A stretch of 64,000 nucleotides of DNA from a virus. The stretch spans positions 124,001-188,000 of IMG/VR virus record IMGVR_UViG_3300027759_000046. One strand, 5' to 3'. The notes beneath the pieces were generated by a model. That model did not search any database. It saw only the letters and a program-made list of their open reading frames with translations, and had not been told where the DNA came from. Every line of letters begins with the position of its first letter. Position 1 is the first letter of the stretch. This document shows, in pieces, positions 13,582-61,274 of this stretch. A program made the translations under genes and the position numbers.

Positions 13582-13591
13582 TATTGTTTTG

Positions 13592-13659: not shown

Positions 13660-13732
13660 TGGTGAGGGGCGGGATCGAACCGCCGACACCAGGATTTTCA
13701 GTCCTGTGCTCTACCTTCTGAGCTACCTCACC
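13660..13732 (-). tRNA. tRNA-Phe (GAA)
   Basis: Acceptor GGTGAGG/CCTCACC, anticodon loop CTGAAAA in AGGA/TCCT and T-arm CGGTTCGATCCCG. First gene of the array after an upstream terminator. Confidence 0.92.
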
Positions 13733-27319: not shown

Positions 27320-27326
27320 TCGGTAT

Positions 27327-27337
27327 TATTATACTTA
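27327..27337 (-). promoter_or_regulatory. TATAAT-like -10 element
   Basis: Minus strand AAGTATAATAA, 8-18 bases before the gp52-like ATG, overlapping the stop codon of the gene upstream. Confidence 0.45.
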
Positions 27338-29550: not shown

Positions 29551-29618
29551 ATCGTTTATTGTATTTGCTATAATCACAAAGGTTTTAGCGTAGCCCAGCT
29601 GAGGTACGCCGATTAAGA

Positions 29619-29630
29619 ATATTATACTAA
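29619..29630 (-). promoter_or_regulatory. TAGTATAATA-type -10 element
   Basis: Minus strand TTTAGTATAATA about 70 bases before the topoisomerase large-subunit ATG, in the gap after the upstream gene. Confidence 0.45.
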
Positions 29631-29651
29631 AGGTATGGAGTAATGGTCGAC

Positions 29652-48951: not shown

Positions 48952-49473
48952 TAAATCTGAGTCCAGCATATAGGCTGCATCGTGGTCTTCGCCTCTCCAC
49001 CAGACTGCACGGGCTCCGCTGCGTTGGTCAAGCCAAACCTCAAGGTCAATCGAGCCAAAGTTCTCTTGCGCAATGATCTCAGCGGACTCGGCCTGCACAA
49101 GATCTTGCTGGTCATCGAGCGCAAAGAGACCGGGTAACGAGCGCACGAGCGCCTTGAATCTGGGCATGTCGTGCCAGGTCGTTGCAGTTGTATTGAAGAC
49201 CTCGACCACCTGTTCCAGAGGTAGAACCTGCAGTACGGCGGCCTGATCCGCCAAGCCAAGCGCCTGCAGTCGAGCCGCAGCCGGGCCAAGCTCAAGGCCC
49301 AGCACCTTGCACGCCCACAGAGCGGAGTCAACCGTGTCCAGATAGTAGTTGACATCGTTGTCCAGCTGGACGGCCATCAGCTCTTCCGAAAAGTTATCCG
49401 GATTGACGACATCTCGGAGCGTTGCAATATCGTGCTCACGCGCGTAGTTCTCAAATAGTTTAAGGTGCTTCAT
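48943..49473 (-). CDS. Capsid-targeted hypothetical protein
   Basis: 176 residues starting MKHLKLFENYAREHD. Acidic, Leu/Ala-rich helical body. Local GC content is clearly higher than in the left arm. A frame shift reading (134 aa) in the same stretch is a shadow. ATAAATA lies only 5-13 bases upstream of the ATG. Confidence 0.65.
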   Translation of the reverse strand: MKHLKLFENYAREHDIATLRDVVNPDNFSEELMAVQLDNDVNYYLDTVDSALWACKVLGLELGPAAARLQALGLADQAAVLQVLPLEQVVEVFNTTATTWHDMPRFKALVRSLPGLFALDDQQDLVQAESAEIIAQENFGSIDLEVWLDQRSGARAVWWRGEDHDAAYMLDSDLDK

Positions 49474-49477
49474 GCTT

Positions 49478-49486
49478 TTATTTATT
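49478..49486 (-). promoter_or_regulatory. Late-promoter-like sequence close to start
   Basis: Minus strand GAATAAATAAAAG directly before the ATG at 49473; the mRNA would be nearly leaderless. Confidence 0.35.
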
Positions 49487-49573
49487 CGATAGGTAGACCC
49501 GGTTCCAGGCCTTTTCGAGCCTCAAGACTCCGGTGCGCGCCCTACAACAATTAGGTAAAGATACCCAGTCTAC

Positions 49574-49666
49574 TTATACTAGAAAAAAGATAAAGATACA
49601 AGACAACACTACAGCCAGACCTATAGGCCAGACCCAACTCCATTCTATCTTACAAGTTCTTTTCAT
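49574..49666 (-). CDS. Tiny membrane protein
   Basis: A 30-codon frame MKRTCKIEWSWVWPIGLAVV then a hydrophobic end (LSCIFIFFLV). A TATATTAG-type -10 string lies 5-12 bases upstream. Weak evidence, but it resembles the other micro-membrane proteins. Confidence 0.4.
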   Translation of the reverse strand: MKRTCKIEWSWVWPIGLAVVLSCIFIFFLV

Positions 49667-49698
49667 AAGCCTAATATACTCTATACCCGGTAACCGGG

Positions 49699-49879
49699 AC
49701 TAGGGAGTACCTGGCAACCTGACCAGCCTCCAGACCCTATAGACCCAGACACGGGACTAGGGAGTAACCCCGAACCCTGAGCCAGACCCCAGACTCGCCT
49801 GACCCCGATGGGACTAGGGAGTGCCGGGCAGCCAGCCGCCCTTGGGGTACCTGCTCGGCCTGCTTAAACACTAGGGAGT
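49699..49879 (+). repeat. Array of four ACTAGGGAGT motifs, 57-bp period
   Basis: ACTAGGGAGT at 49699-49708, 49756-49765, 49813-49822 and 49870-49879: every start is exactly 57 bp from the last. The sequence between copies is GC-rich and mostly not conserved. Copies 1-3 are preceded by GGG or CGGG. The spacing is 5.4 helical turns, so neighbouring sites face different sides of the helix. The array ends 135 bp before a plus-strand recombinase-like gene. Confidence 0.8.
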
Positions 49880-49998
49880 ACGGTGACCCCCTCGGCCTCG
49901 CCGGAAACTCTGGACTCCAGGGTCTCGCGGGGCCGGGGATGCCGAGACTATAGGGACTGGACGGGACATGGGGATCCGCGGAGTCTCGGCAGACCGGG
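49880..49998. other. GC-rich non-coding leader
   Basis: No gene on either strand. Contains CTGGACTCCAGG and other short palindromes, in a stretch much richer in GC than the phage average. It joins the repeat array to the recombinase-like gene. Confidence 0.4.
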
Positions 49999-50006
49999 TA
50001 TAAATA
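49999..50006 (+). promoter_or_regulatory. TATAAATA promoter-like box
   Basis: Plus strand GGTATAAATAAG, 8 bases before the ATG of the recombinase-like gene, so a transcript from it would have almost no leader. Confidence 0.4.
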
Positions 50007-50013
50007 AGTCTAT

Positions 50014-50682
50014 ATGGAAACACGCGATACACAAGACGGAGCCGAGGATAACAGAGATTACCTTGCGCCCGGCCACGGACCTACTGGCAATCTGGTCTAT
50101 AAGAAAGATGCAGCTCGGTACCTAGGTATAAGCCTTAAGACTCTAGAGCGCTATGTGAAACAGGGTCTGGTCAAGCCCTTTAAGAACGAGGTAAACGGCC
50201 GAACCTACTTTGACCAGCTGGATCTACTAGCCTTACTAGGGAGTAGACTACCCCAAGAACGAGAGGTTGTGCTGTACTGCCGGGCTGCGGGGATTCCGGA
50301 TCAGGGTAAAGCCGGCGTATCCAGCCAGGCCAGACTGCGAGACCAGGTAGACCGCTGTACCGAGTACTGTACCAAGGCTGGGGTCCGGGTCGATCGTATA
50401 ATCCAAGAGATTGGAAAGGGGCACACCCTGAATGGTCGCAGCGGGATTGACCAATTGCTGGATTTAGTGTTCCGAAAGAAGGTATCAATGATCGTGATCG
50501 AGTGCCCGGATCGTCTGGCTCGTTGGGGCATGGGCGAGGTCTTGGAGAGATTCCTGACCTGGCACGGTGTAGAGCTGCATGTTATAAACAAGGGCTGGTC
50601 ACGTGCCGAATTCCGCGAAGAGGTAAAAGAAGATCTTGCGGGAATCCTATTCGAGGCGAAACGCCTGCTAGGAGAAGCTTAA
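50014..50682 (+). CDS. IS607-type serine recombinase homologue lacking catalytic Ser
   Basis: 222 residues on the plus strand amid minus-strand genes. Residues 28-75 form a MerR-like helix-turn-helix (YKKDAARYLGISLKTLERYV). A serine-recombinase domain follows as in IS607 TnpA: LYCRAAG (about 87-93) where the family has YARVSS, then CPDRLARWG (about 164-172). The nucleophile position (about 92) is Ala; Ser 103-104 are offset. No tnpB lies beside it. It is more likely a DNA-binding protein than an active recombinase; the periodic motif array next to it is a natural target. Confidence 0.75.
   Translation: METRDTQDGAEDNRDYLAPGHGPTGNLVYKKDAARYLGISLKTLERYVKQGLVKPFKNEVNGRTYFDQLDLLALLGSRLPQEREVVLYCRAAGIPDQGKAGVSSQARLRDQVDRCTEYCTKAGVRVDRIIQEIGKGHTLNGRSGIDQLLDLVFRKKVSMIVIECPDRLARWGMGEVLERFLTWHGVELHVINKGWSRAEFREEVKEDLAGILFEAKRLLGEA
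50235..50244 (+). repeat. ACTAGGGAGT copy in recombinase gene
   Basis: Exact 10-mer inside the coding sequence (codons for Leu-Leu-Gly-Ser). 365 bp after the last array copy. Confidence 0.7.
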
Positions 50683-51053
50683 CTAAATATTGTTGGATTA
50701 CGGCGGCCCCATTCTCTGAGCAAGACGCCAGCCTGGGAGTTTGCCTCGTTCTCTATGTCAGATCCGTCGGCACCGTCCAAGACCTTGCCGCTGTCGCGCT
50801 GATGATGGTGTACCAATTCATGGGCCAAGGTTCTGTACCAGTCTGCACGGACTCTGGTTCCGCGAAGAACCCAGATCTCATTGGACTGTGGATTAAAGTA
50901 TCCCATTGACTTATTTAACATAGCCTCCCTATGGTCATCAGAAATGTGGATCGTTGGGGTGCTGGTCCAGCCTAACTGCTGACGACAGAAGTGTACGAAC
51001 TCCTCTAATTCGGAGTCTTCCTGCCATTCACGGGATTCTTTAATGTATTTCAT
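50679..51053 (-). CDS. Capsid-targeted zinc metallopeptidase
   Basis: 124 residues. Targeting-like start (MKYIKESREWQEDS) and the zinc site LAHELVHHHQ near 81-90, then ENEANSQAG near 105, which offers the third ligand as in gluzincins. It is convergent with the recombinase gene (four-base overlap). Its presence in the head would deliver a protease to the cell at infection (inference). Confidence 0.75.
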   Translation of the reverse strand: MKYIKESREWQEDSELEEFVHFCRQQLGWTSTPTIHISDDHREAMLNKSMGYFNPQSNEIWVLRGTRVRADWYRTLAHELVHHHQRDSGKVLDGADGSDIENEANSQAGVLLREWGRRNPTIFS

Positions 51054-51056
51054 ATA

Positions 51057-51066
51057 GTTATTTATT
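51057..51066 (-). promoter_or_regulatory. Late-promoter-like sequence close to start
   Basis: Minus strand GAATAAATAAC, only 4-13 bases before the metallopeptidase ATG. Confidence 0.4.
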
Positions 51067-51106
51067 CATGGAGTTCTCAGCGAACCCCAGAAATGTGACC
51101 TTTGTA

Positions 51107-51182
51107 CCTGTCTCGGGGTTTCCCCCAGCACGGGGCGAGCTCCAGAGCCCATGCCAGGTCGGCACGGCCCCGGGGCTTTGGG
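51107..51182. other. GC-rich structured element, copy A
   Basis: Contains TTTCCCCCAG, then CTCCAGAGCCCATGCC-AGGTC-GGCACGG; a very similar string is at 59.87-59.94 kb. TGCC/GGCA can pair in both copies while the loop differs. The 196-base gap around it has no gene. Function unknown; a small RNA or a protein-binding site are options. Confidence 0.45.
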
Positions 51183-51249
51183 CGCCTTATTCTAATATAC
51201 CATTTTGCCCATCATTCGGCAATTAAATAATAAAAAAATAAGATACGTT

Positions 51250-51384
51250 ATGGCTAAACAGATTATTGCAAGACTCCACCTTGCTAAACCCAAAGTAAAG
51301 AAACCCGGCGTACACGCCAAGTCCGGTTCCTCTCGCAACAAGAGATCCAAGAACTACAAGAAGCCCAACGTTGGACAGGGCTAA
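51250..51384 (+). CDS. Tiny basic conserved phage protein
   Basis: 44 codons, starts MAKQIIARLHLAKPKVKKPG and ends SKNYKKPNVGQG, very rich in Lys/Arg. Small proteins with the SKNYKK..GQG ending recur in Bacteroidetes phages, by recollection; their role is unknown. It is the only plus-strand gene between the recombinase and the right end. Confidence 0.65.
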   Translation: MAKQIIARLHLAKPKVKKPGVHAKSGSSRNKRSKNYKKPNVGQG

Positions 51385-51390
51385 ACCCAA

Positions 51391-51415
51391 AAAAGGGACT
51401 CCACTAGGGAGTCCC
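51391..51415 (-). terminator. Rho-independent terminator containing ACTAGGGAGT
   Basis: Minus strand GGGACTCC-CTAGT-GGAGTCCC followed by TTTTTT. It ends the DUF932-like gene. The right arm of the stem includes an exact copy of the 10-bp motif (51403-51412). Confidence 0.82.
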
Positions 51416-51441
51416 TCTCTTCATTAACCAATTAACCTTTC

Positions 51442-52560
51442 CTAGATAGCAGCTAGGTCTGCGTGTTGTAGATCCCAAGTCTTAGCGAATAGATTTCCAC
51501 CGTCGACCTTGAAACGTTTTGAGTTCTCGAAGTTGAAGATCGACTGGTGACTTCCAATCCATGTCAACTCGTTAACTACATCCCATACAGTAGCATCAGT
51601 CTTGATAAACTTCTTCTGTGCGTCTGTTAGGGTCAATGGGTTGTGGCCCTTACGGAAGATACGTTTTGTTGCCGCATCGTATTCTGGAAAGAACTGTTGT
51701 TCTGCTGCCTTGATTAGGTGAGCCTTCATGTCAGGATTTTCTTCCTTGATCTGGCCAGTTACTGAGTACATCGCTCGCTCTAATTCTCCGTAGCTTGCAC
51801 GTGTTGTCATCGCTGTTTCCAATCTGTCTTGGAAAGTTCTTGGTACAAATCCTACCTTTGCCCAACCGTTCATGCTCGTTAAGAGTTCGCGGAAAGCGTC
51901 TTGGCCTTTACCAAACTCGAATGCTGTATTCAAGTTTCTGGCTACTGCACCGTTTGCGCAGCTTAGGCGTAAGAAGAAGTCGTCTACTCTTGAGTTGATA
52001 TTGGAGTTTACTAGGGAGATCCCGAAGCGGAACACCTCGTCCTTACCGATCTTCTCAAAGCCTACTTGACTGCCGTGGATGAGGTTGATACTTAAGCCGT
52101 TCTTGCCGCCATGGTCGATTGACTCTACATGCATGTCGGGGATCTCGTTAAGGATCGTCTCCGCCGTGTTGAATAGGGTCTCATTGCTTAGACGATGGTA
52201 ACGATCTGCCTTTACGATATCGCCAACTTCGCGTTTGTCCGCATCGCCGATAAGTAAGAACTCTTTTGAACCGTCACGCGTTTCTGAATAGGCTTTAACT
52301 GCCTGTAATAGTTTGGTCGCGACAGCTCTGTCCTCGTTCTTGTCCATGCGGCTAAGCAACGTGGATTGGATATTGACTGCCTGTCCCAAGCGGTTGAAGA
52401 ACCTGTTAGAGACTGGGATACGTGCGCCATCGATAAAGATGCATCCGTTCTTGATTGAACTATCGTCGATCTGAATATCAGATAACTTAACTCGCTTTGT
52501 TAGCGGATCCTGTCCTGCGAGATTTGCTTTGCTTTCGCTAAATTGACTTTGATTAATCAT
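51442..52560 (-). CDS. DUF932-like protein
   Basis: 372 residues. The central part (HRLSNETLFNTAETILNE, FRFGISLVNSNINSR, RLSCANGAVARN) follows the DUF932 pattern of plasmid and phage proteins. Role unknown; probably DNA metabolism, as the next gene is a RecA-like ATPase. A TATAAT-like box lies upstream. The SLVN codons contain a 9/10 match to the motif at 52010-52018. Confidence 0.7.
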   Translation of the reverse strand: MINQSQFSESKANLAGQDPLTKRVKLSDIQIDDSSIKNGCIFIDGARIPVSNRFFNRLGQAVNIQSTLLSRMDKNEDRAVATKLLQAVKAYSETRDGSKEFLLIGDADKREVGDIVKADRYHRLSNETLFNTAETILNEIPDMHVESIDHGGKNGLSINLIHGSQVGFEKIGKDEVFRFGISLVNSNINSRVDDFFLRLSCANGAVARNLNTAFEFGKGQDAFRELLTSMNGWAKVGFVPRTFQDRLETAMTTRASYGELERAMYSVTGQIKEENPDMKAHLIKAAEQQFFPEYDAATKRIFRKGHNPLTLTDAQKKFIKTDATVWDVVNELTWIGSHQSIFNFENSKRFKVDGGNLFAKTWDLQHADLAAI

Positions 52561-52586
52561 GTGGTATATGGTTTTTTGGTTTATAT

Positions 52587-52597
52587 TATTATACTAA
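52587..52597 (-). promoter_or_regulatory. TAGTATAATA-type -10 element
   Basis: Minus strand TTTAGTATAATAATA, 27-37 bases before the DUF932-like ATG, overlapping the stop of the ATPase gene. Confidence 0.5.
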
Positions 52598-53689
52598 ATT
52601 GTCTGTAGCTTCGTCCGTTTGCGGAGCAATAGTTTCCTCTTCAGTTGGGGTCTTAACTGATAAGAAGAGATCGTTGAACTTGTGTTCCAACTCCTGACGA
52701 CGAGCTGACTCCTCATCCGCAAGTTTAGCAACCTCGGTCTCCTGTCTCCATGAGGTCTCGTCCCACTTGACTTCACCGTTTACTAGGGAGTAGTATAGAC
52801 GCTTACCGACTAGGCTTCCTCCACGTCTGTTCTTTGAGAACTCTACGAAACGTCTGCCTGACTCGTCGAACTTGATCTCCATCATGGATGTGGTCGCATG
52901 TTTAAGATAGGTAGATCCTACATACTGTCCGCCTTTCGTCATGTGCTGAATTGCAAAGATTGTTTTGCCGTGTTTGTCAGCAGCTTCGATGATGAGGTTG
53001 GTCAGCCATGTCTGGGCTCTCGTAGATTTCCAGCCTAGGATATCCGCAAGCTTTACAATAATATCCTGATGAGAGTCAATCAAGATTACGTCGTGATCCC
53101 CTTTGATTGTGTCTTCCAACACCTTGTCGAAACGACCCATCACGTAGTCCATAACCAATAAGGTCGGAACGTTCGCAATGATTGGGGTTTTTTGGAAGTA
53201 GAAGTAGAGATCGTTACGAGTCATCTCACTTGAGATGTAGAGGATCTTGGCCTCGGGCTGTACTCGCTTGATCTTAGAGATAAGATCCAATGTCACGGTT
53301 GATTTACCTACGCCCGACTCGCCGATTACAATATTAGCAGTTCCCGAAAAGATACCACCGTCTTCCGTATGGTCCGAGAAAAGCTTGTCAATAATACCGC
53401 CCGTCTTGTAGGCTTTAAACTCTGGGAAATCCATCTCACCGATCTCGATAATCTCGGCCACCATGTCTTGGGGTACCTCGATGGTAGGGGTTACTAGGGA
53501 GTCCGTCGTGATACCGGCTCTGAGCTTCTTTATTACTCCATTGAAGAGACCGTAACTCACATTGGCATCTGCACCTGTGGTCATGAACTCTGTGTAGAGC
53601 TGCTGTACTGTCTTGTCCGTTGGGACCTCGCCGTTATGGCTTTGTTCGAAGAAGGTTCGAACCGTAAGTTCTTTTTTTCCGATCTGCAT
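52589..53689 (-). CDS. RecA/RadA-like ATPase
   Basis: 366 residues. Walker A IGESGVGKSTVT near 124-135, ILYISSEMT near 155, Walker B DVILIDSHQD near 198, and an IQHMTKGGQYVG segment near 245 as in RadA/DnaB-like cores. N-terminal 100 residues precede the ATPase. It may act in recombination or helicase loading. Two exact ACTAGGGAGT copies lie inside (52782 and 53493), both coding for Ser-Leu-Val. Confidence 0.8.
   Translation of the reverse strand: MQIGKKELTVRTFFEQSHNGEVPTDKTVQQLYTEFMTTGADANVSYGLFNGVIKKLRAGITTDSLVTPTIEVPQDMVAEIIEIGEMDFPEFKAYKTGGIIDKLFSDHTEDGGIFSGTANIVIGESGVGKSTVTLDLISKIKRVQPEAKILYISSEMTRNDLYFYFQKTPIIANVPTLLVMDYVMGRFDKVLEDTIKGDHDVILIDSHQDIIVKLADILGWKSTRAQTWLTNLIIEAADKHGKTIFAIQHMTKGGQYVGSTYLKHATTSMMEIKFDESGRRFVEFSKNRRGGSLVGKRLYYSLVNGEVKWDETSWRQETEVAKLADEESARRQELEHKFNDLFLSVKTPTEEETIAPQTDEATDNLV
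52782..52791 (+). repeat. ACTAGGGAGT copy
   Basis: Exact 10-mer inside the ATPase gene (codons TCC CTA GTA of YSLVN on the minus strand). Confidence 0.7.
53493..53502 (+). repeat. ACTAGGGAGT copy
   Basis: Exact 10-mer near the 5' end of the ATPase gene, in the same codon phase (DSLVT) as the others. Confidence 0.7.
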
Positions 53690-53717
53690 ATTTTATTTGG
53701 GGTTAATTGGTTTATAA

Positions 53718-53728
53718 TATTATACTAC
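53718..53728 (-). promoter_or_regulatory. TAGTATAATA-type -10 element
   Basis: Minus strand GTAGTATAATA, 29-39 bases before the ATPase ATG. Confidence 0.5.
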
Positions 53729-53794
53729 AGTTCTGCAGTTTTGGCTTCAGTTCTTCAGTTTTTTATTATTTATTTAGACTGAAGAACCGGCCGG

Positions 53795-53804
53795 ACTAGG
53801 GAGT
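53795..53804 (+). repeat. ACTAGGGAGT copy, intergenic
   Basis: Exact 10-mer immediately after the stop of the 57-residue gene. Confidence 0.7.
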
Positions 53805-53805
53805 A

Positions 53806-53979
53806 CTACTCATCAAAGTACAGGAACTCAACCGCTTCCGCGCATTCAAACATTCCAAGGTCTTCGAACATGGTGTAGGCTCCGTCAGCATCGCTCATCG
53901 CGACCACCTCCATTGCCTGGTACACGGCGTCCTCGCCGAACTGGGCTATTGCTGCATCTATTTTTTCTTGTGTTACCAT
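53806..53979 (-). CDS. Small acidic hypothetical protein
   Basis: 57 codons: MVTQEKIDAAIAQFGEDAVY start, acidic helix, ending EFLYFDE. Its codon structure and five-base gap to the next frame support it. No family recognised. Confidence 0.55.
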   Translation of the reverse strand: MVTQEKIDAAIAQFGEDAVYQAMEVVAMSDADGAYTMFEDLGMFECAEAVEFLYFDE

Positions 53980-53984
53980 AGTTT

Positions 53985-54122
53985 CTATTTTATAATGATT
54001 GTAAATTCTGAACCGAAAGCCATTTGATATTCGCGCTCCAACTCTCTGGCCTCTTTAAGAGTTTTGGCGGTGTCAACTACCTCGCGACCGTAGCGCGATA
54101 CTGCTATGATTTTATATGTCAT
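53985..54122 (-). CDS. Small hypothetical protein
   Basis: 45 codons, MTYKIIAVSRYGREVVDTAK then an amphipathic helix and TIIIK. A beta-alpha-beta mini-fold is likely. It is two bases after the upstream gene stop. Confidence 0.55.
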   Translation of the reverse strand: MTYKIIAVSRYGREVVDTAKTLKEARELEREYQMAFGSEFTIIIK

Positions 54123-54124
54123 GA

Positions 54125-54538
54125 TTAGATTGATTTTAAAAGTTGAGTAAATGTTTGAGCTTCAGCAAGTGGCTTATCAAAACCAGTTGCTCGTGAAAAT
54201 GCTTCGGCCTTGCCGTTGTGGCCAGATTTACCGGTTACCCAGAAGAGTACCTCACCGGATTCGCGATCGCAGATTGAGAAGGAATCGTATAGAGGTCCGC
54301 TCATTGGGCAATTGTTCTTGAAGAACACATAGGTCTTTGTACAATCGATAGCACGACCTGATTCGCGAAGCGCATTGACGAACTTGATTACTTGACCCTG
54401 TAGTTTCTTTGCTCTCATGGGTAGAGATGAGTCCTTACAGAACCAATCATAGAAGTCATGGCAATGTGGATAAAGAGCTGATTGGCCTTGGGCCCATGCG
54501 TACATTTGGTCTGCGATTGATACTTGATTTTCTGTCAT
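54125..54538 (-). CDS. Hypothetical protein
   Basis: 137 residues with several Cys/His (YPHCHDFYDWFC, NNCPMSG). Not recognised. First of three genes downstream of an early-type promoter module. Confidence 0.6.
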   Translation of the reverse strand: MTENQVSIADQMYAWAQGQSALYPHCHDFYDWFCKDSSLPMRAKKLQGQVIKFVNALRESGRAIDCTKTYVFFKNNCPMSGPLYDSFSICDRESGEVLFWVTGKSGHNGKAEAFSRATGFDKPLAEAQTFTQLLKSI

Positions 54539-54574
54539 ACGTTAAAGGTTTAATGGTTTAAGAATTAATTGATA

Positions 54575-54643
54575 TGTAAATATAATACATTAGTTTGACA
54601 CTAAAAAACTTTTTATGACTTATTTTCAAAAAAGTTATTAACA
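54575..54643 (-). promoter_or_regulatory. Right-arm promoter module
   Basis: Minus strand GTTAATAACTTTTTTGAAAATAAG, then CATAAAAAGTTTTTTAGTGTCAA and the core TTATATTTAC (54576-54585), 38 bases before the gene start. The core is close to the Bacteroidetes -7 box TAnnTTTG. Confidence 0.6.
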
Positions 54644-54644
54644 T

Positions 54645-54736
54645 TGGATTGTTAATAACTCGCAGAGTCTGAGGCAGGTCGGAGTATACCTCCCGCTTCC
54701 TTGTTCCGAACCGTCCCGTCTAGATTGATTGACATA
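54645..54736 (-). ncRNA. Candidate small RNA or leader between promoters
   Basis: A TTATATTTAC core at 54738-54747 points into this gene-free stretch, and GTTAATAAC ends it. It contains GGTATACTCCGACCTGC, closely repeated at 61.4 kb as GGTAGACTCCGACCTGC. A short transcript made here would be non-coding. Confidence 0.4.
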
Positions 54737-54747
54737 GTAAATATAAT
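54737..54747 (-). promoter_or_regulatory. TTATATTTAC promoter core
   Basis: Minus strand TTATATTTAC directly after the terminator of the 74-residue gene and before the candidate small RNA. Confidence 0.45.
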
Positions 54748-54750
54748 AAA

Positions 54751-54780
54751 AAACCCTGAATCTAAAAAATCCAGGGTCAT
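54751..54780 (-). terminator. Rho-independent terminator
   Basis: Minus strand ACCCTGGATT/ATTCAGGGT stem with interior mismatches, then TTTTTTATT; serves the gene ending at 54809. Confidence 0.65.
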
Positions 54781-54808
54781 TTATTTTCAGGAAAGTTATT
54801 AACAATTT

Positions 54809-55033
54809 CTAGTGTTCAGGAATCTCTAATTCTAGGTCTCCGATCTTTACTGTCTTGCCGATGAGGTCTCGACTGCTTGCCGCTTTGGCATGGCCGCGGT
54901 GGTCATGGTAATCAAGGTCTATTTCTTCAGTCGCGTTCGCAAGTAGGTTAAACATCTGTTCCGGTTCTTTTACACAAACCTCCCTGCCGTTTTCATAAAG
55001 GTATAGTCGTACTATCTCGTTCATGGTGGTCAT
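54809..55033 (-). CDS. Small hypothetical protein
   Basis: 74 residues starting MTTMNEIVRLYLYENGREV, acidic, ends IGDLELEIPEH. Unrecognised. Confidence 0.58.
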   Translation of the reverse strand: MTTMNEIVRLYLYENGREVCVKEPEQMFNLLANATEEIDLDYHDHRGHAKAASSRDLIGKTVKIGDLELEIPEH

Positions 55034-55057
55034 GGGTTTTTTGTTATTTAATAAAAA

Positions 55058-55080
55058 GAAAGGGGTTATAAACCCCTTTG
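55058..55080 (-). terminator. Terminator overlapping a stop codon
   Basis: Minus strand AAAGGGGTTTATAACCCCTTT followed by CTTTTTATT. The TAA of the 126-residue gene lies in the loop, so the stem also forms the last codons. Confidence 0.7.
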
Positions 55081-55446
55081 CAATATTTCCTTTTCTCTTT
55101 GAGTTAGGGACTCAACTCCCGATCTCGAAATTTTATCAAGGATTTCGTCCACCGTTAAATCCGGTGTTGCAGTTTGCGCTGCCGTTTTGAGTACCGCATT
55201 GATCGCTTGCATCAACGCCTCAGGAAGATTTAGGTTCACCTTAGTTTCTTCCATTAAGAAGAATGTGGCTCCTGTTTCCTTCACATCCTGGGTGATCTCT
55301 TCCTCTGATGATTGAGTATTAAAGACCGACAGGATTGCGCCCGGAATTGGTGCGGCGAATGCGGGTCCTACAATGTGGGGTTTCAACGCTTGTGAAACCG
55401 CTGGGTTCGGAGCTGAGCCGAATCGAACTAAGAATAATTTTTTCAT
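55066..55446 (-). CDS. Hypothetical protein with DUF6576-like tail
   Basis: 126 residues. The C-terminal KISRSGVESLTQREKEILQRG resembles the short helical tail (DUF6576-type) found at the end of Bacteroidetes rhomboid proteases, a hint of host adaptation. The N-terminal part (MKKLFLVRFGSAPNPAV) is not recognised. Confidence 0.6.
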   Translation of the reverse strand: MKKLFLVRFGSAPNPAVSQALKPHIVGPAFAAPIPGAILSVFNTQSSEEEITQDVKETGATFFLMEETKVNLNLPEALMQAINAVLKTAAQTATPDLTVDEILDKISRSGVESLTQREKEILQRGL

Positions 55447-55469
55447 ATTTGGTTAGATTGATTTATAAA

Positions 55470-55536
55470 GCTAATATACAACAAAACTTTTAAATAAAAA
55501 AACTTTTGATGAATTATTTTCAGAAAAGTTATTAAC
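55470..55536 (-). promoter_or_regulatory. Right-arm promoter module
   Basis: GTTAATAACTTTTCTGAAAATAATTC, CAAAAGTTTTTTTA and a variant core GTTGTATATTAGC, 24 bases before the ATG at 55446. Confidence 0.55.
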
Positions 55537-55537
55537 A

Positions 55538-55562
55538 AAAAAGGGAGCCACATGGACTCCCG
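55538..55562 (-). terminator. Rho-independent terminator
   Basis: Minus strand GGGAGTCCATGTGGCTCCC followed by TTTTTTG, after the 98-residue gene. Confidence 0.72.
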
Positions 55563-55589
55563 ATCTTGTCAATAAACCAATTTTACCAA

Positions 55590-55886
55590 TTATACCAAAT
55601 GTAGTATCTCAGCTAGAGCGCGATCAGTTACTCGTCGGCTCATACCTCCAATATGCCATTCAATAGTTTCTTCTTTCGAGATGCGACGGTATTCTTTCCA
55701 GTCGTAGATGGTAAATACATCTCCTTCTTCCGTTTCGCAAATCCATTCGAAATTTACTTTATCTTCTCCAGTATTATCTTCAATCGTGGGTTCTCCAAGG
55801 ATTGCGATAAGGTCATTCACTGAACACTTTAATACTGTATCGTGGAACGAGGTTCCGCCTGCACGCTTTTCGGTTTTTCTAGCCAT
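55590..55886 (-). CDS. Hypothetical protein
   Basis: 98 residues, basic start (MARKTEKRAGGTSFHDTVLK) then an acidic beta-rich core with WHIGGMSRRVTDRALAEIL at the end. Similar small proteins occur in early regions of large phages; role unknown. Confidence 0.6.
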   Translation of the reverse strand: MARKTEKRAGGTSFHDTVLKCSVNDLIAILGEPTIEDNTGEDKVNFEWICETEEGDVFTIYDWKEYRRISKEETIEWHIGGMSRRVTDRALAEILHLV

Positions 55887-55950
55887 GGTTATTTTTTTAG
55901 TTGGTTGATAAAGCTAATATACAACAAAAACCTGATACTGGAAAATCTTT

Positions 55951-56244
55951 TTAAATATTTTTTACAGGTATTTTCTCGATCAAGGCTAGGCTGCCAAGCG
56001 GAGACCACATAGCCTCTTCATAGCTTTCAAACCGGGACCGGTCCCATAGCCAGACCAGACCGTGCTTCTTCCATTCCTCTCGCGCTGCACGCTCTGTCCT
56101 GCTTGCTTCGGCGATCTGCATCTGAAACAAGGCAATTGCATACACGGCTTTAAATGTTCCGCAGACACAGACAGGTTTTTCTTCTTCCCCTACACGAGAG
56201 GTTAGCAACCAGACTTCTTTATTTTTCCGGGTTGGACTAGGCAT
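55951..56244 (-). CDS. Hypothetical protein
   Basis: 97 residues from MPSPTRKNKEVWLLTSRVGE; the ATG ten codons earlier overlaps the tiny gene upstream. Beta hairpins, then a Trp-rich segment (WKKHGLVWLWDRSRFESYEE). Unrecognised. Confidence 0.58.
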   Translation of the reverse strand: MPSPTRKNKEVWLLTSRVGEEEKPVCVCGTFKAVYAIALFQMQIAEASRTERAAREEWKKHGLVWLWDRSRFESYEEAMWSPLGSLALIEKIPVKNI

Positions 56245-56245
56245 G

Positions 56246-56320
56246 TTAATCTCTTTTTTCTGGTACGAATACACAGTAGATACAGAATGCTACACTTACT
56301 AGGATTGCTATTGCGCACAT
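56246..56320 (-). CDS. Tiny membrane protein
   Basis: 24 codons: MCAIAILVSVAFCIYCVFVP followed by EKRD. The ATG/stop spacing to both neighbours is like real genes here. Very short, so tentative. Confidence 0.4.
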   Translation of the reverse strand: MCAIAILVSVAFCIYCVFVPEKRD

Positions 56321-56353
56321 GGTTGAATGGATTAAGGGGTTAATAATATTATC

Positions 56354-56602
56354 TTACCCAAGTTCTTCACTTAACTTCTTGAGGTCAGCACATTTCTCGT
56401 ACTGCTCTTTCTTTTCAAAATGCAAGATCATGGTCCAGATAGCCTGTTTCTTTTCTTCCATTGGGGTTCCATCGTGCACGACATCTCTGAATTCGCCGGC
56501 CAGTGCTTCATAGAGTCTGTCCATGAATCCATCGTAATCTGATTCGCGCAGCCGGATAAGTTCCAGCAGGATATCGTTGTATGTTCTGGTTTTCTTTGCC
56601 AT
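56354..56602 (-). CDS. Hypothetical protein
   Basis: 82 residues, helical and charged (RLRESDYDGFMDRLYEALAG). Unrecognised. An ATAAATAAT string lies just upstream. Confidence 0.6.
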   Translation of the reverse strand: MAKKTRTYNDILLELIRLRESDYDGFMDRLYEALAGEFRDVVHDGTPMEEKKQAIWTMILHFEKKEQYEKCADLKKLSEELG

Positions 56603-56673
56603 ATCTTTATTATTTATTCTTGTTTATTTAGAGTCACTCAGCGTGAATCTTAGCTTGTCTATAATATAGTACT

Positions 56674-56704
56674 AAAAAAGGGTCTTCGGAACACCGAGAC
56701 CCTT
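56674..56704 (-). terminator. Rho-independent terminator
   Basis: Minus strand AAGGGTCTCGG-TGTT-CCGAAGACCCTT followed by TTTTAG; follows the 108-residue gene. Confidence 0.82.
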
Positions 56705-56721
56705 AATAATAATTTGGATTA

Positions 56722-57048
56722 CTAGATAAATTGGGTTAGGTAGCCGGTCGGCCAGCCCTCATCGTCCTGTTCAAAGTCCATGTCTGTCTGAATCAGGTCC
56801 GAGTAAATGCTTAGCTTCTCGCGTGGTTCCAGCCCGGCAAAGCAGTTAGAGATTAGGGTATCTACTGATTCGTCTGGTACAAACTCATCGTCCAACCTGA
56901 CTGAACCATCTTCTAACATGAAGATGTCTACTGCTAAGTTCTCTCGCATTATGTCTATTGCATCTGCTGCATTTAACTCTGCAAGGTAAGCGTCTACTTG
57001 TTCGAACGCTTCTTCAATTGGAACTCTTAATAGGTCTGGATTTCTCAT
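56722..57048 (-). CDS. Acidic hypothetical protein
   Basis: 108 residues, strongly acidic (VRLDDEFVPDESVDTLISNC). It could be a DNA-mimic or inhibitor type of early protein, but nothing specific is seen. Confidence 0.6.
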   Translation of the reverse strand: MRNPDLLRVPIEEAFEQVDAYLAELNAADAIDIMRENLAVDIFMLEDGSVRLDDEFVPDESVDTLISNCFAGLEPREKLSIYSDLIQTDMDFEQDDEGWPTGYLTQFI

Positions 57049-57061
57049 TGTTAAATCTTGG

Positions 57062-57187
57062 TTAGGGTTGATAAAAGAATAGAATACACGTTGCTACTAC
57101 TGCGAGAGCAATGATAATCAATGCTCCATTAATTAGAGAATCTCTTCTCATCATTTTAACTTCTTTTTCTGAAAATTTCTTTGCCAT
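57062..57187 (-). CDS. Tiny membrane protein
   Basis: 41 codons: basic MAKKFSEKEVKMMRRDSLIN, then one membrane segment (GALIIIALAVVATCILFFY). Ends 13 bases before the next gene. Confidence 0.5.
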   Translation of the reverse strand: MAKKFSEKEVKMMRRDSLINGALIIIALAVVATCILFFYQP

Positions 57188-57223
57188 CTTTTTTATATTT
57201 TAATTGATTAATAATTTAGGTAA

Positions 57224-57679
57224 TTAGGCGGCGTTCTTTACGAACGCCTTGTCTGCCCATGTCTTAGCTCCAGCCATCCTATAATTATTCTGACTGTATA
57301 GATTAGTATTAGACCAGTCTTGATTGATGTCGCCCACTTCCATTGCCAGGAACATGTCCGAATCCATTAACTTGATCTTGTTACCTGACCTTGCGAATAC
57401 AGTGATGAAGGTTTCTGATCCTTCTGCTCTGAACTCGATTGTCTGCAACGCGCCTTTTTTAAATCCTCTGAATACATCCATTGCAGAGTTCCAAGACTGT
57501 CTTCCCCAATTTGCTCTAATGCCATGGTCTTCAACGACTGTCATGAAGCCTGCCTGTACTCGAACGATTGCGCGGTATTCGCCTTTACGGCCTTGGATAA
57601 AATCCACTTGGCTGATTCTCTCCGCATTGAAGATTTCAACTGATGGTTTGTAGTCTGGATTAAATTGTTTCTTTTTCAT
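57224..57679 (-). CDS. Hypothetical protein
   Basis: 151 residues, mixed beta (YRAIVRVQAGFMTVVEDHGI; TIEFRAEGSETFITVFARSG). No family recognised. It has an early promoter module upstream. Confidence 0.6.
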   Translation of the reverse strand: MKKKQFNPDYKPSVEIFNAERISQVDFIQGRKGEYRAIVRVQAGFMTVVEDHGIRANWGRQSWNSAMDVFRGFKKGALQTIEFRAEGSETFITVFARSGNKIKLMDSDMFLAMEVGDINQDWSNTNLYSQNNYRMAGAKTWADKAFVKNAA

Positions 57680-57702
57680 GGTTGATTGATTTGGTTTATA
57701 AT

Positions 57703-57757
57703 AGTAAATATAATACTTATTCTTGACAGTAAAAAACTTTTTATGAATTATTTTTTA
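57703..57757 (-). promoter_or_regulatory. Right-arm promoter module
   Basis: Minus strand TAATTCATAAAAAGTTTTTTACTGTCAAG and the core ATTATATTTAC, 24 bases before the ATG at 57679. Confidence 0.6.
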
Positions 57758-58063
57758 AAATCTTTCTGAACCTAAATGAGAGCAGGCAGAAGAGTATCTC
57801 TCGAGAAGGTTGCTGCCGGCTAGCAGAAGAAAGCTTGAACCTGCAATTCCACGGATCTTATAATCTTCAGGTACTATAACACTGCCAAGTCTGCTGCCGC
57901 CTGAATCCAGTGTCATAATGAATCTACCTTCTCGAACCACTATGAATTCGGAAGAGAAGCCTTCCATCGTAGAGCCCGACGCAATTTGAGTCCAGCCAAT
58001 TTCTTGACCAGACTCGTTTAAGATTTGGAGGCTTGAACCTCGTTGTATAACATTACCTATCAT
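57755..58063 (-). CDS. Beta-rich hypothetical protein
   Basis: 102 residues made of short strands and turns (SLQILNESGQEIGWTQIASG). Its 3' end runs into the promoter module. Overlaps the gene upstream by four bases. Confidence 0.58.
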   Translation of the reverse strand: MIGNVIQRGSSLQILNESGQEIGWTQIASGSTMEGFSSEFIVVREGRFIMTLDSGGSRLGSVIVPEDYKIRGIAGSSFLLLAGSNLLERYSSACSHLGSERF

Positions 58064-58278
58064 GCTGTTGTCTTTGAATTTTTAATACACTCTTGAAATT
58101 CTTCTTCCGTCAGGTCAGGTATATCCTGAGTTACAAGCTTTAGCAGGGTTGCTGCTTCTATCTCTGTTACTAGGGAGTCCTTATTGACTTTGCCCTTAAA
58201 AGGATCTCCTTCAGAGAATAGAATCTCGACTGCGGTCTCTGCCCAGAAGCGGGCTTCTAATTGAGTTGTCATTATCAT
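58060..58278 (-). CDS. Small hypothetical protein
   Basis: 72 residues, helical. Includes DSLVTEIEAA, whose codons hold an exact ACTAGGGAGT copy. It overlaps the sigma factor gene by four bases, so the two are translated together; an anti-sigma or sigma-partner role is possible but unsupported. Confidence 0.58.
   Translation of the reverse strand: MIMTTQLEARFWAETAVEILFSEGDPFKGKVNKDSLVTEIEAATLLKLVTQDIPDLTEEEFQECIKNSKTTA
58169..58178 (+). repeat. ACTAGGGAGT copy
   Basis: Exact 10-mer within the 72-residue gene (GAC TCC CTA GTA ACA on the minus strand). Confidence 0.7.
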
Positions 58279-58994
58279 ACGCCTACCTCCTTTCTCATTT
58301 TAGCACGAGCAACCTTAAGGGCACGGTTAACTTCGACTGGGGTTTTACCTACTGCATCCGCAACTTCCTTGGTAGAGAGACCGTCTCCAACGAGACCGTA
58401 GAACAACTCGACGATTTGACGTTCAGTTGGTTTAAGAACGTTAAGTACTCTACGGAGTATTCGGGTTTGGTCCTCACTATCGAATGGGTCTTGGAAATCT
58501 TCTCTTAACAAGAGATCGCCTACTGTATCGTCGCCATCCTCGCCGATTGGACGATCCAATTGGATGTTACGCATGTTAATGCTTTCGCCTGCCATCTTAC
58601 GTTTGTAAAGATCGTATTCCTGATTTACTGGAATTCGGACAGTACGACCGACTTCGCAAAGAGCAAGGTTTAATCTCTTACGAATCCAGAACTGAGCGTA
58701 AGTAATAAACTTTACGTCTTTATCTGGGGTAAAACGACGAGCAGCTTCGATAAGACCCGCATTACCTTCTTGGATTAAGTCATCGATGGAAAGACCCATA
58801 CCGATAAACTTGTTTGCAAGAGTAACAACGAACTTAAGATTCGCTTGTACTAATTGATGCATTGCTCGCTCATCTCCTTTCTGGATGCGGACTGCTAATT
58901 GAAGTTCTTCAGCCTTGCTGAGCGGAACTGCTACGGGCGCGATATCTTTGAAATATTGCGGTAGACTTTCTGATGTTTCGAATCTTTTCGACAT
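58275..58994 (-). CDS. Compact sigma-70-family sigma factor
   Basis: 239 residues. Region 1.2/2: LSKAEELQLAVRIQKGD, LVQANLKFVVTLANKF, GLSIDDLIQEGNAGLIEAARRF (core binding) and ITYAQFWIRKRLNLAL (-10 recognition). Region 4 is LKPTERQIVELFYGLVGDG ... LSTKEVADAVGKTPVEVNRAL (helix-turn-helix). Compared with Bacteroidetes RpoD, most of region 3 is missing. It probably directs host polymerase to one of the phage promoter classes seen here. Confidence 0.9.
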   Translation of the reverse strand: MSKRFETSESLPQYFKDIAPVAVPLSKAEELQLAVRIQKGDERAMHQLVQANLKFVVTLANKFIGMGLSIDDLIQEGNAGLIEAARRFTPDKDVKFITYAQFWIRKRLNLALCEVGRTVRIPVNQEYDLYKRKMAGESINMRNIQLDRPIGEDGDDTVGDLLLREDFQDPFDSEDQTRILRRVLNVLKPTERQIVELFYGLVGDGLSTKEVADAVGKTPVEVNRALKVARAKMRKEVGV

Positions 58995-59023
58995 AGTTGG
59001 TTTGGTTTAATTGATTATTATAA

Positions 59024-59092
59024 TGTAAATATAAACAAAATTTCTGACAAGTAAAAACTTTTTATGACTTATTTTCAAAAAAGTTATTAACA
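59024..59092 (-). promoter_or_regulatory. Right-arm promoter module (sigma factor gene)
   Basis: GTTAATAACTTTTTTGAAAATAAGTCATAAAAAG..., TTGTCAGAAATTTTG and core TTATATTTAC (59024-59033), 30 bases before the sigma factor ATG. Confidence 0.6.
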
Positions 59093-59096
59093 ATTG

Positions 59097-59207
59097 TTAG
59101 TTAACAACTTGACCGCAATCGCAGCATTTTACAAGTTTGATTCCTGAAACGTGGCGAACTGCTACGTAAGTTCTGATGTGTTGGCATTTGGCTGATTGGT
59201 TATTCAT
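59097..59207 (-). CDS. Tiny zinc-ribbon-like protein
   Basis: 36 codons, MNNQSAKCQHIRTYVAVRHV then CCDCGQVV; C/H...CxxC layout. The promoter core ends only three bases before the ATG, so its mRNA would be leaderless. Confidence 0.48.
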   Translation of the reverse strand: MNNQSAKCQHIRTYVAVRHVSGIKLVKCCDCGQVVN

Positions 59208-59210
59208 AAT

Positions 59211-59263
59211 GTAAATATAACTATAATACTTGACAGTAAAAAACTTTTTGTGAATTATTTTCA
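59211..59263 (-). promoter_or_regulatory. Right-arm promoter module
   Basis: GAAAATAATTCACAAAAAGTTTTTTACTGTCAAG...TTATATTTAC, with the core touching the start of the tiny zinc-ribbon gene. Confidence 0.6.
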
Positions 59264-59279
59264 AATTATTTTATACGCG

Positions 59280-59306
59280 AAAAGGGGTCCAACCACGGAC
59301 CCCAAT
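59280..59306 (-). terminator. Rho-independent terminator
   Basis: Minus strand GGGGTCC-GTGGTT-GGACCCC followed by TTTTCG; ends the 93-residue gene. Confidence 0.8.
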
Positions 59307-59329
59307 TCTATCAATCAACCAATAGTATT

Positions 59330-59611
59330 TTAATTTAAGCAGATTCCTGTTTCTCGTAACAGGTTCTCTAATTGTATATCTTCTTCAGACATGCCTGATT
59401 CTCTCTTAACCTGTTTAATACAGAACTGCATAAGCAATCGTTGAAGCTCTTGCGTACTGCGCTCGTCCTGTGTTGCGGCCAATAGGGTTATTAATCCATT
59501 ACCGATTAAGATAAGTTCTGAATCAGATGTCTTGATTCCGCCCGCGATTAGGCTATTCGCCAAGGTCTCTAGCTCGGCTCTTGTTTTTTCTCTAATTTCT
59601 TTCTTATTCAT
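59330..59611 (-). CDS. Hypothetical protein
   Basis: 93 residues, helical (MNKKEIREKTRAELETLANS start; LQRLLMQFCIKQVKRE). Unrecognised. Confidence 0.58.
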   Translation of the reverse strand: MNKKEIREKTRAELETLANSLIAGGIKTSDSELILIGNGLITLLAATQDERSTQELQRLLMQFCIKQVKRESGMSEEDIQLENLLRETGICLN

Positions 59612-59639
59612 GGTAGTTGATTATTGATTTAATCTTATA

Positions 59640-59834
59640 TTACTCTTTTCCAAGCGCGATGGCCTTGTTCACTTCATAGATTCTTGACCAGAATTCGTTG
59701 TATTCAAGTTGATTGTCTGGCTTTACAGTTGACTGTACTCTCGCACCGCCGCCATAGGTTAAGTCAATGGGTTCTCCGATCGTTGGATCAATTCCCTGTA
59801 ATTTATAGATTAAGGCCTTAAGTATTTTCTTCAT
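59640..59834 (-). CDS. Small hypothetical protein
   Basis: 64 residues, MKKILKALIYKLQGIDPTIG start, ends NKAIALGKE. Unrecognised. Confidence 0.55.
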   Translation of the reverse strand: MKKILKALIYKLQGIDPTIGEPIDLTYGGGARVQSTVKPDNQLEYNEFWSRIYEVNKAIALGKE

Positions 59835-59867
59835 AGTTATTAGGTTTTACAGATTAAGTTTGTTTTT

Positions 59868-59942
59868 TAAGGGTCACGCGATTCCCCCAGTACTACTGCG
59901 TGGTCCAGGACCCATGCCTGGGAGGCACGGAAATCCAGGACT
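59868..59942. other. GC-rich structured element, copy B
   Basis: ATTCCCCCAGTAC..., GTCCAGGACCCATGCC-TGGGA-GGCACGG: the counterpart of the element at 51.1 kb, sharing the CCCCCAG, CCAG(R)RCCCATGCC and GGCACGG blocks. It fills a gap between two minus-strand genes, upstream of the 64-residue one. Confidence 0.45.
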
Positions 59943-59949
59943 AGGTCTA

Positions 59950-60144
59950 TTAACAGATTCGATTGGCCACAAAGCCTTGTGCATCGCTTGCGCCATAGTA
60001 TTTCTTGATCGCGGCCGGTGCGGTAGGATTATCCATCAGCCAGCCATCCGCAATATCGAACGCCATTGAATCGTCTATGTCTCCGGCATCGATTGCGCCC
60101 AGTGCAAGCTCTCGTAATTCAGTATCTAATTTTTCTTTTGTCAT
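59950..60144 (-). CDS. Small hypothetical protein
   Basis: 64 residues (MTKEKLDTELRELALGAIDA ...). Acidic helix with a GWLMDNPTAPAAIKKYYG end. Unrecognised. Confidence 0.55.
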   Translation of the reverse strand: MTKEKLDTELRELALGAIDAGDIDDSMAFDIADGWLMDNPTAPAAIKKYYGASDAQGFVANRIC

Positions 60145-60189
60145 AGGTATTAGTTTTAGGGTTTAGGGTTAGATTTATAATCAACTGTT

Positions 60190-60199
60190 ACTAGGGAGT
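60190..60199 (+). repeat. ACTAGGGAGT copy, intergenic
   Basis: Exact 10-mer five bases beyond the stop of the 155-residue gene. Confidence 0.7.
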
Positions 60200-60203
60200 C
60201 CGG

Positions 60204-60671
60204 CTAGGCCAGACCCTTGTCTCGTAAAAACAGGCAGCGCTGAATCCTGGTATACAGGTCCGGCAAGGAGTCTGTCATCGCTAAGATCTTCTTTAGGTCA
60301 GGCTTGGGTAGGGTTGACGCAACCATCGCAACCGCAACATCGATTGGATTACCGAGCTTCAGCTGCTCCATGATCTGGCTCGAGCCGGTTGGGCTGATTG
60401 AGCCGGGAATCTTGCACTGTGCTCCGAACTCAAATTGATAGAAGGATTGACGTTCCGTCTGATCAACTAAACTTGCATCAAGCATCTGTCTCACGCGCTG
60501 GATATGCTTGCTTGTCGTGCGGCTGTACTTGCCCTTTGTCATGAGAACTGGTCTACGGCTCAGCTCCTTTGGATAGAACTGTAGGGTCGCGACATGGGTT
60601 TCGTAGCTTATTACCTTGTTCCCAACGAGGAATAGGTTCTGTGCAATCTGTAGAGATGGTTGGAATTTCAT
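60204..60671 (-). CDS. Hypothetical protein
   Basis: 155 residues, MKFQPSLQIAQNLFLVGNKV start, basic, with IQRCLFLRDKG at the end. Not recognised. Confidence 0.6.
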   Translation of the reverse strand: MKFQPSLQIAQNLFLVGNKVISYETHVATLQFYPKELSRRPVLMTKGKYSRTTSKHIQRVRQMLDASLVDQTERQSFYQFEFGAQCKIPGSISPTGSSQIMEQLKLGNPIDVAVAMVASTLPKPDLKKILAMTDSLPDLYTRIQRCLFLRDKGLA

Positions 60672-60672
60672 A

Positions 60673-60720
60673 GGTTAAATATAAGCATTTTAATTGAGAT
60701 AAAACAATAAAGTTATTAAC
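60673..60720 (-). promoter_or_regulatory. Right-arm promoter module (divergent form)
   Basis: GTTAATAACTTTATTG... with core CTTATATTTAAC just before the ATG at 60671; the middle part is less conserved than in other copies. Confidence 0.45.
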
Positions 60721-60726
60721 ATAGCT

Positions 60727-60736
60727 ACTAGGGAGT
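60727..60736 (+). repeat. ACTAGGGAGT copy, intergenic
   Basis: Exact 10-mer 20 bases beyond the stop of the DUF6011 gene, next to GTTAATAAC. Confidence 0.7.
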
Positions 60737-60755: not shown

Positions 60756-61274
60756 CTATGACTCTACCGGCGAGAATACTTCGGCAAGGTTGAAGTTGCC
60801 AGCCTGACTGCTGTGAAGCATACGCTCTAAGCATACGGGACCGAGCGCTGTGTGAATCGATTCCGGATGGGTAAGCGGTAATCCGCAAGCGCAGCATCTG
60901 CCTTCGTGGAATAGACCTACACGACCGCGTAAGATCTCTGGATTCTTGATCGCTGATACGACCCAGCCTAGGGCGCGAGCTAAGCGGGAATCCGGTCTAA
61001 CGTTGCGGCCGAGCTTTACGTGCATGGTATCAGAGAATAGAGTTCCTGCGAACTGCGAGCTTTGACGGCCGTCGTTAAGCAAGGAGATGTCAATGTAATA
61101 GATCGGCAACTTGATCTTGCGATCCTGCTTATCGCGCAGCTGCTTGATCTTAACTGTCATGTGGGTTCCTTCCGCAAGGTTACGGAACGTAAGCACTGCA
61201 CGGCCTGCTAACGCGAGCTTTGGAAGAGCAAGCGGGTTGAGGTTTGGACGGGGGATGTTTCTGTGGTTTCTCAT
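60756..61274 (-). CDS. DUF6011-type zinc protein
   Basis: 172 residues. The C-terminal half carries EGRCCACGLPLTHPESIHTA ... GPVCLERM, the four-Cys DUF6011 module seen in phage and actinobacterial proteins. The N-terminal half is basic and beta-rich (AVLTFRNLAEGTHMTVKIKQ). Possibly a nucleic-acid-associated early protein. Confidence 0.72.
   Translation of the reverse strand: MRNHRNIPRPNLNPLALPKLALAGRAVLTFRNLAEGTHMTVKIKQLRDKQDRKIKLPIYYIDISLLNDGRQSSQFAGTLFSDTMHVKLGRNVRPDSRLARALGWVVSAIKNPEILRGRVGLFHEGRCCACGLPLTHPESIHTALGPVCLERMLHSSQAGNFNLAEVFSPVES

Follow-up and report, generated by a model that had tools for sequence, protein, structure and literature searches.

Networks of short, same-facing DNA sites are known from cluster A mycobacteriophages, whose stoperators (L5, TipsytheTRex repressor) are many copies of one short asymmetric site that all point the same way with respect to transcription, are found in short gaps between genes and close to promoters, and are bound by one phage-encoded protein (PMC9283540). 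In L5, where reversed copies of these asymmetric, oriented, intergenic sites fail (PMC9283540), the binder consists of an HTH and a Stoperator domain. Short direct repeats are likewise bound by the IS607-family TnpAs (IS1535, IS607 and ISC1926), which combine an N-terminal MerR-type HTH with a C-terminal serine-recombinase domain; cooperative binding of IS1535 TnpA to four direct repeats of 9 bp is accompanied by spreading and by the capture of a second duplex, and the IS607 core is GG (PMC6188088). Cooperative binding to direct repeats is also described for the MerR-like protein BldC (PMC5859096), and TldR, a phage-encoded RNA-guided transcription factor, is a precedent for an IS-encoded enzyme that lost catalysis and turned phage regulator (PMC13418256).

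The locus described here shares features with each of these systems. It lies in a 64-kb stretch of phage DNA (G000:C1:124001-188000, referred to as the window) and comprises a 57-bp-phased array, a trail of dispersed same-facing sites and an adjacent gene, rec, whose product resembles an IS607-type transposase.

Results

A phased array at the end of a one-strand site network

Four motifs with an exact 57-bp period, pointed out in an initial annotation of the window, were confirmed as four exact copies of ACTAGGGAGT on the plus strand, at 49699–49708, 49756–49765, 49813–49822 and 49870–49879. The period is 56–58 bp in relatives as well, and the context of the fourth copy, the one closest to rec, is the most conserved among them. 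That annotation had also called the spacers unconserved, which holds for most of their length as they are largely dissimilar to each other, yet the first three copies share a similar context of about 24 nt (GGGACTAGGGAGTNCC...). The block was correctly recognized as GC-rich, being the GC maximum of the window (0.563 at 49001-50000), and the stretch directly left of the array is C-rich and G-poor. As a matter of arithmetic that carries no evidential value, 57 bp is about 5.4 helical turns, which places adjacent sites on near-opposite faces and alternate sites on near-same faces of the helix.

What had been overlooked were eight further copies, the dispersed one-strand network that they form, and the identity of the neighboring HTH protein as a dead IS607-type recombinase. 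Of all 10-mers in the window, ACTAGGGAGT is the most frequent: 12 exact copies are on the plus strand and none on the minus strand, compared with about 0.1 expected by composition. Across the full record of 253,137 bases the count is still 12 forward and 0 reverse, and all copies fall within 11 kb (49699-60736 of the window), so that the array appears as the dense end of a wider network confined to one strand.

All copies beyond the array lie on the plus strand. One is located within rec (50235–50244), where it codes for LLGS, while the next (51403–51412) overlaps a perfect, terminator-like, leftward hairpin (51397-51423; GGGACTCC/GGAGTCCC followed by a T run) at the 3' end of gene 51442-52560. 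The AAA/RadA-like gene carries two, at 52782–52791 (LYY-SLV-NG; found at the same place in relatives) and at 53493–53502 (D-SLV-T; in an unconserved loop). Of the remainder, 53795–53804 is intergenic with ATAAATA next to it in the leftward direction, 58169–58178 sits in a small leftward ORF (again D-SLV-T), and two intergenic copies follow leftward genes, 60190–60199 a few nt past the stop of gene 60204-60671 and 60727–60736 19 nt past that of gene 60756-61274. A near-match, ACTAGGGAGA (52010–52019, plus strand), codes for SLV within gene 51442-52560 and is of uncertain function. A short TTTAGGG repeat (2.3 copies, 60155-60170) was noticed beside the site at 60190.

Two candidate explanations for the repeats were discarded at this level. 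For an RNA element, Rfam gave no hit at E<=1 across 49400-51500, and the site is kept within genes on either coding strand; a CRISPR-like array is at odds with a repeat of only 10 bp that also occurs as single copies inside genes.

Rec is an IS607-type recombinase without its catalytic serine

The gene rec (50014–50682, plus strand) was characterized by Pfam and NF033518 searches, alignment, AlphaFold2 modeling with Foldseek, and a tree. Its product matches PF12728, PF13411 and PF00239 and shows the IS607-family TnpA layout, with an N-terminal MerR-type HTH and a C-terminal serine-recombinase domain, although its score of 102.4 bits against the IS607 transposase model NF033518 is under the curated cut-off of 110. 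The AlphaFold model (mean pLDDT 74) has as its top Foldseek matches 3ilx, 3lhk and 6dgc, which are solved IS607-type catalytic domains, and the predicted HTH fold resembles RacA and BldC. No match to other repressor families was obtained in Pfam, NCBIfam or PHROGs, nor by fold, and Rec is not homologous to the L5 gp71 repressor.

In all 14 rec lineages aligned, the catalytic serine is replaced, by Ala in 12 of them and by Pro and Gly in the others, so that the canonical YxRVS reads YCRAA (as in the window), YCRVA, YCRTA, YTRSA, YARAA, YCRVP or YTRVG, and the nucleophile is absent from every one; the six canonical TnpAs in the alignment retain it. Most rec lineages retain the Arg near the lost Ser and the DR..R motif further on, whereas an insertion of 6–8 residues follows the lost position and the C-terminal LYGxR tail is absent from Rec of the window clade. 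A conserved Ser of the insertion (S103) was considered as a relocated nucleophile and rejected, as it is absent from L041 and L042. In the tree, a branch with a support of 100/98 separates the 14 rec lineages from the six canonical TnpAs.

The genomic context differs from that of IS607 elements too. No TnpB domain (PF07282) was found in G000, while annotated canonical phage IS607 copies have TnpB or a second transposase gene directly downstream; moreover, the rec locus is not a mobile unit, and its sites extend across 10 kb. Isolated phages yielded only canonical IS607 TnpAs with less than 35% identity to Rec, and one genome-contig scan with exact peptide seeds from a single sequence returned no bacterial relatives. 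Rec is best read as a domesticated, catalytically dead IS607 transposase that was presumably kept for DNA binding.

Array, trail and site variant in related phages

Our evidence is all comparative, and the relatives are metagenomic contigs, some of them partial and some near-identical. Scanning IMG/VR for two 10-mers 40-65 bp apart retrieved 21 contigs, mostly with spacings of 56–58 bp and mostly with rec beside the array, and a rec-based scan gave 17 loci, all 17 with exact 10-mers on the rec strand and most with the array just before rec and the dispersed sites downstream. Relatives whose Rec is 30–100% identical carry the one-strand trail together with the in-rec site, in most cases accompanied by a 56–58 bp array, and 30 of the 38 adjacent site pairs with spacings below 200 bp are 56–58 bp apart. 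The comparison that the initial annotation had proposed, a search of relatives for the array and its spacing, therefore came out in its favor: the array is kept at the junction with a 56–58 bp step, while the spacers have diverged. Four near-identical records of 270-271 kb contain ten sites across 8.2 kb.

Exceptions to the common layout were seen. In L044, a one-mismatch copy stands alone before rec and two sites 57 bp apart lie within it, a pair that is shared by L044/L077, and in L045 the array is 2 kb downstream of rec. A conserved small basic ORF that ends in KNYKKP[NY]VGQG occupies 51205-51384 (plus strand) of the window, with a counterpart at about 12884-13034 in L045, where a three-copy array with a 56-bp step is found directly upstream of this ORF, not of rec.

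A deeper clade was reached by a scan based on the AAA gene. Its AAA proteins are 49-54% and its Rec proteins about 30-34% identical, Rec again lacking the catalytic Ser, and its site is the one-base variant ACTACGGAGT, present in 8–15 copies per record, nearly all of them on one strand. The 57-bp array is absent from this clade. In L079/L088, a three-copy array at exactly 57 bp is composed of the variant ACTACGGAGT in all three copies, with base 5 changed. Summed over one representative record per lineage, about 154 sites are forward and 2 reverse, and the reversed-pattern control gave 0 in nearly all records.

Most contigs bearing the array or the trail have rec, and the records in which it was not detected are short, partial, or the one unexplained case of L095, a 100-kb record. 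In the latter (IMGVR_UViG_3300026484_000248), four ACTACGGAGT sites cluster in 242 bp at 4802-5043 with steps of 69, 94 and 69 bp, and possibly belong to another binder or to a diverged Rec. In L009, L017 and L023, which have no rec, pairs spaced by 51 and 61 bp are probably due to chance and were set aside.

The sites are conserved as DNA inside genes

Both sites in the AAA/RadA-like gene encode Ser-Leu-Val. When this gene was codon-aligned across five lineages with about 70-77% protein identity, only two of 1218 10-mers were invariant, one of which was the site, although the loop that holds it is gapped and unconserved. The deeper clade has a site in this region of the gene too, which reads Ser-Val-Val in keeping with the base change; since Leu or Val follows the site variant, selection acts on the DNA. 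In rec, the site is present in both clades at different codon positions, coding for LLGS in the window clade and for GTTESD in the deeper clade, in which it adjoins the lost catalytic residue.

Placement relative to genes, stop codons and late-type promoters

Virion/lysis-type genes lie to the left of the array, and to its right is the block with the AAA/RadA-like gene and a sigma factor gene (58275-58994), which carries the dispersed sites. The array had been placed at a junction of late and early arms; it does mark the boundary of the virion/lysis-type and AAA/sigma blocks, but not a divergence of two arms, because both blocks run leftward. The site domain of the window corresponds to the leftward block right of the array, whose transcription runs toward the array, and every site in that block has one polarity relative to this transcription. 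Sites inside rec, on the other hand, point along rec transcription, so that polarity follows the genome axis and not the individual genes.

According to home-made gene calls, dispersed sites are noncoding in 45 of 78 cases compared with 17.3 expected, and 9 of 46 have ATAAATA within 22 nt after the site compared with 1.3 expected; owing to these gene calls and to some related loci the counts are not fully independent, and since several of the ATAAATA-flanked loci are related, there are fewer than nine independent events. The dispersed sites lie a median of 42 nt past the upstream stop codon, a shorter distance than chance would give (p = 0.002). The excess of intrinsic terminators at the sites (6/37) over gene 3' ends in general (10%) was not significant.

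A T4-type late-promoter-like element, TATAAATA (49999–50006, plus strand), is found 7 nt before the rec start codon and is predicted to have promoter activity. The pattern [T/G]ATA[A/G]ATAA precedes the rec start shortly in the homologues read, and rec is therefore probably a late gene. ATAAATA a few nt before start codons, as in T4-like late promoters, was also observed at 49473-49488, 50000 and 51053-51068 and at many late-side genes, the products of which often begin with MKxLxxFE, a start that we take to resemble T4 capsid-targeting leaders. Elsewhere, the window holds two topoisomerase II subunit genes as in T4-like phages (25958-29703; phrog_551, phrog_543), a cluster of 17 tRNA genes (11333-13732), a further two tRNA genes at 1798 and 16192 that lie apart from it, and a degenerate tandem repeat of 27/51-bp units (10245-10423) inside gene 9763-11100.

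Discussion

The site network, its polarity and spacing, its co-occurrence with rec, the variation of the site between clades and the loss of the catalytic Ser are direct observations. They make it highly probable, as judged from sequence comparison, that the Rec protein pairs with the sites, and they lend support to the initial proposal that the phased array is where a DNA-binding protein assembles, the HTH protein encoded next to it being the putative partner. Of the functions then suggested, a regulatory site fits best, its output being a matter of prediction.

We incline, with reserve, to a polar operator or roadblock network with an autoregulatory nucleation array, both presumably read by a dead IS607 transposase. 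The MerR-type HTH of Rec would recognize the asymmetric 10-mer, and Rec, devoid of its nucleophile and unable to cut DNA, would act as a DNA-binding, bridging protein for which the array is the main docking cluster. Upstream of the late-type promoter of rec, the array would nucleate a multi-subunit complex and autoregulate rec. The protein would also occupy the 8–15 dispersed same-facing sites of the neighboring block. These lie at the 3' ends of genes, close to late-type promoters or within a few of the genes, and could serve as oriented operators or roadblocks that restrain or insulate transcription toward the array. Both this transcriptional output and any bridging or spreading by Rec are predictions. 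The reading is favored because the L5 stoperators are marked by asymmetric sites that share an orientation and lie between genes and close to promoters, and dispersed asymmetric sites of one orientation in short intergenic gaps are what we found, together with some inside genes. The binding, spreading and duplex capture described for IS1535 TnpA (PMC6188088) speak for it as well. Counting against it are the sites located far within genes, a position that parS sites can also take, the sites in rec that point along rec transcription, the sites of L095 without a detectable rec, and the terminators that are not significantly enriched.

A centromere-like or genome-organizing role is the main alternative, though an unlikely one. 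Here the dead transposase would link the array with the dispersed sites, and about 10–20 kb of the phage genome would be folded or tethered so as to be segregated, condensed or brought to where replication or packaging takes place, as at sopC/parS or RacA sites. The sopC of the F plasmid consists of short sites in a fixed-period array, and the parS sites of Bacillus subtilis cluster and include one in the gene of their own binder, just as the sites here cluster in one part of the genome with one in rec. The RacA- and BldC-like HTH fold and the spreading and second-duplex capture of IS1535 TnpA (PMC6188088) point the same way. However, parS and sopC sites are palindromic and unoriented, whereas ours are asymmetric at the center and oriented at about 154:2, and they favor places after stop codons and near late-type promoters; nor did Pfam-level searches of G000 find ParB_N or AAA_31, which leaves the partition (ParABS) role once suggested without ParA and ParB. 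It is more doubtful still that another phage or host protein, such as the sigma factor encoded in the same block or a polarity-sensing replication factor, reads the sites and Rec is a mere neighbor. Binding by Rec is deduced indirectly and L095 has sites but no detectable rec, yet nearly every lineage with an array has it upstream of rec, the in-rec site is present in both clades, and IS607 TnpAs bind short direct repeats (PMC6188088).

The remaining functions fare worse. Tandem direct repeats at a fixed step, strict polarity and the C-rich, G-poor stretch left of the array would suit an iteron origin or polar replication-fork barriers, but we regard these as very improbable, as the cumulative skew of the 253-kb and 271-kb records passes the array without an inflection, the sites spread across 10-20 kb, and the 57-bp array is absent from the deeper clade. 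Even less credence is given to a packaging (pac) site, for which the intergenic position next to a late-type promoter and bordering virion genes could be adduced: the four 270-271 kb records open at positions that bear no relation to the array (array at 230,072; 117,957; 263,386; 174,573), and dispersed in-gene sites are unexpected for pac. Origin and packaging, both among the earlier proposals, are thus left unsupported. That a functional IS607-type transposon or inversion system uses the sites as its ends or for recombination has a negligible probability, despite the homology of Rec to IS607 TnpA and a GG at the center of the 10-mer like the IS607 core (PMC6188088), given the loss of the catalytic Ser in 14/14 lineages, the lack of a detected TnpB and the synteny conserved across deep divergence. 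The variant sites center on CG, and a GG crossover core was dropped for this reason.

The polar operator network differs from its nearest counterparts in several respects. In contrast to L5, the putative binder is a dead serine transposase, the sites are confined to 10–20 kb, and there are a phased 57-bp array at the binder's gene and a site within that gene. The system would work like stoperators, yet it is neither a member of the stoperator family nor a working IS607 element. BldC shares the MerR-type HTH fold and, if Rec binds as predicted, the use of direct repeats, but is devoid of a recombinase domain. Its repeats are also adjacent, not 57 bp apart. TldR is RNA-guided and derived from TnpB, whereas here a TnpA would rely on protein–DNA recognition. 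Our literature search, to which subscription journals were largely inaccessible, turned up no paper on jumbo phages together with IS607 and, in the titles and abstracts of the papers listed, no domesticated dead IS607 TnpA.

There is, in our estimate, an even chance that an IS607 TnpA has become a dead, sequence-specific architectural regulator in a family of large phages, served by a nucleation array phased at 57 bp and by a site network of strict polarity that overrides protein-coding constraint, its site nearly unchanged while the protein diverged to about 30% identity. This would be a novel type of polar boundary, for transcription or for DNA domains, and the TnpA counterpart of TldR. If so, a transposase lost catalysis and was retained as a dedicated phage regulator whose target-site network can still be read. 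The site lends itself to testing by comparison alone, as it changes by one base between clades, dictates amino acids and keeps a constant spacing and polarity, and the system would offer a direct test of why asymmetric regulatory sites of phages must share an orientation and of the way in which IS607-type filaments nucleate.
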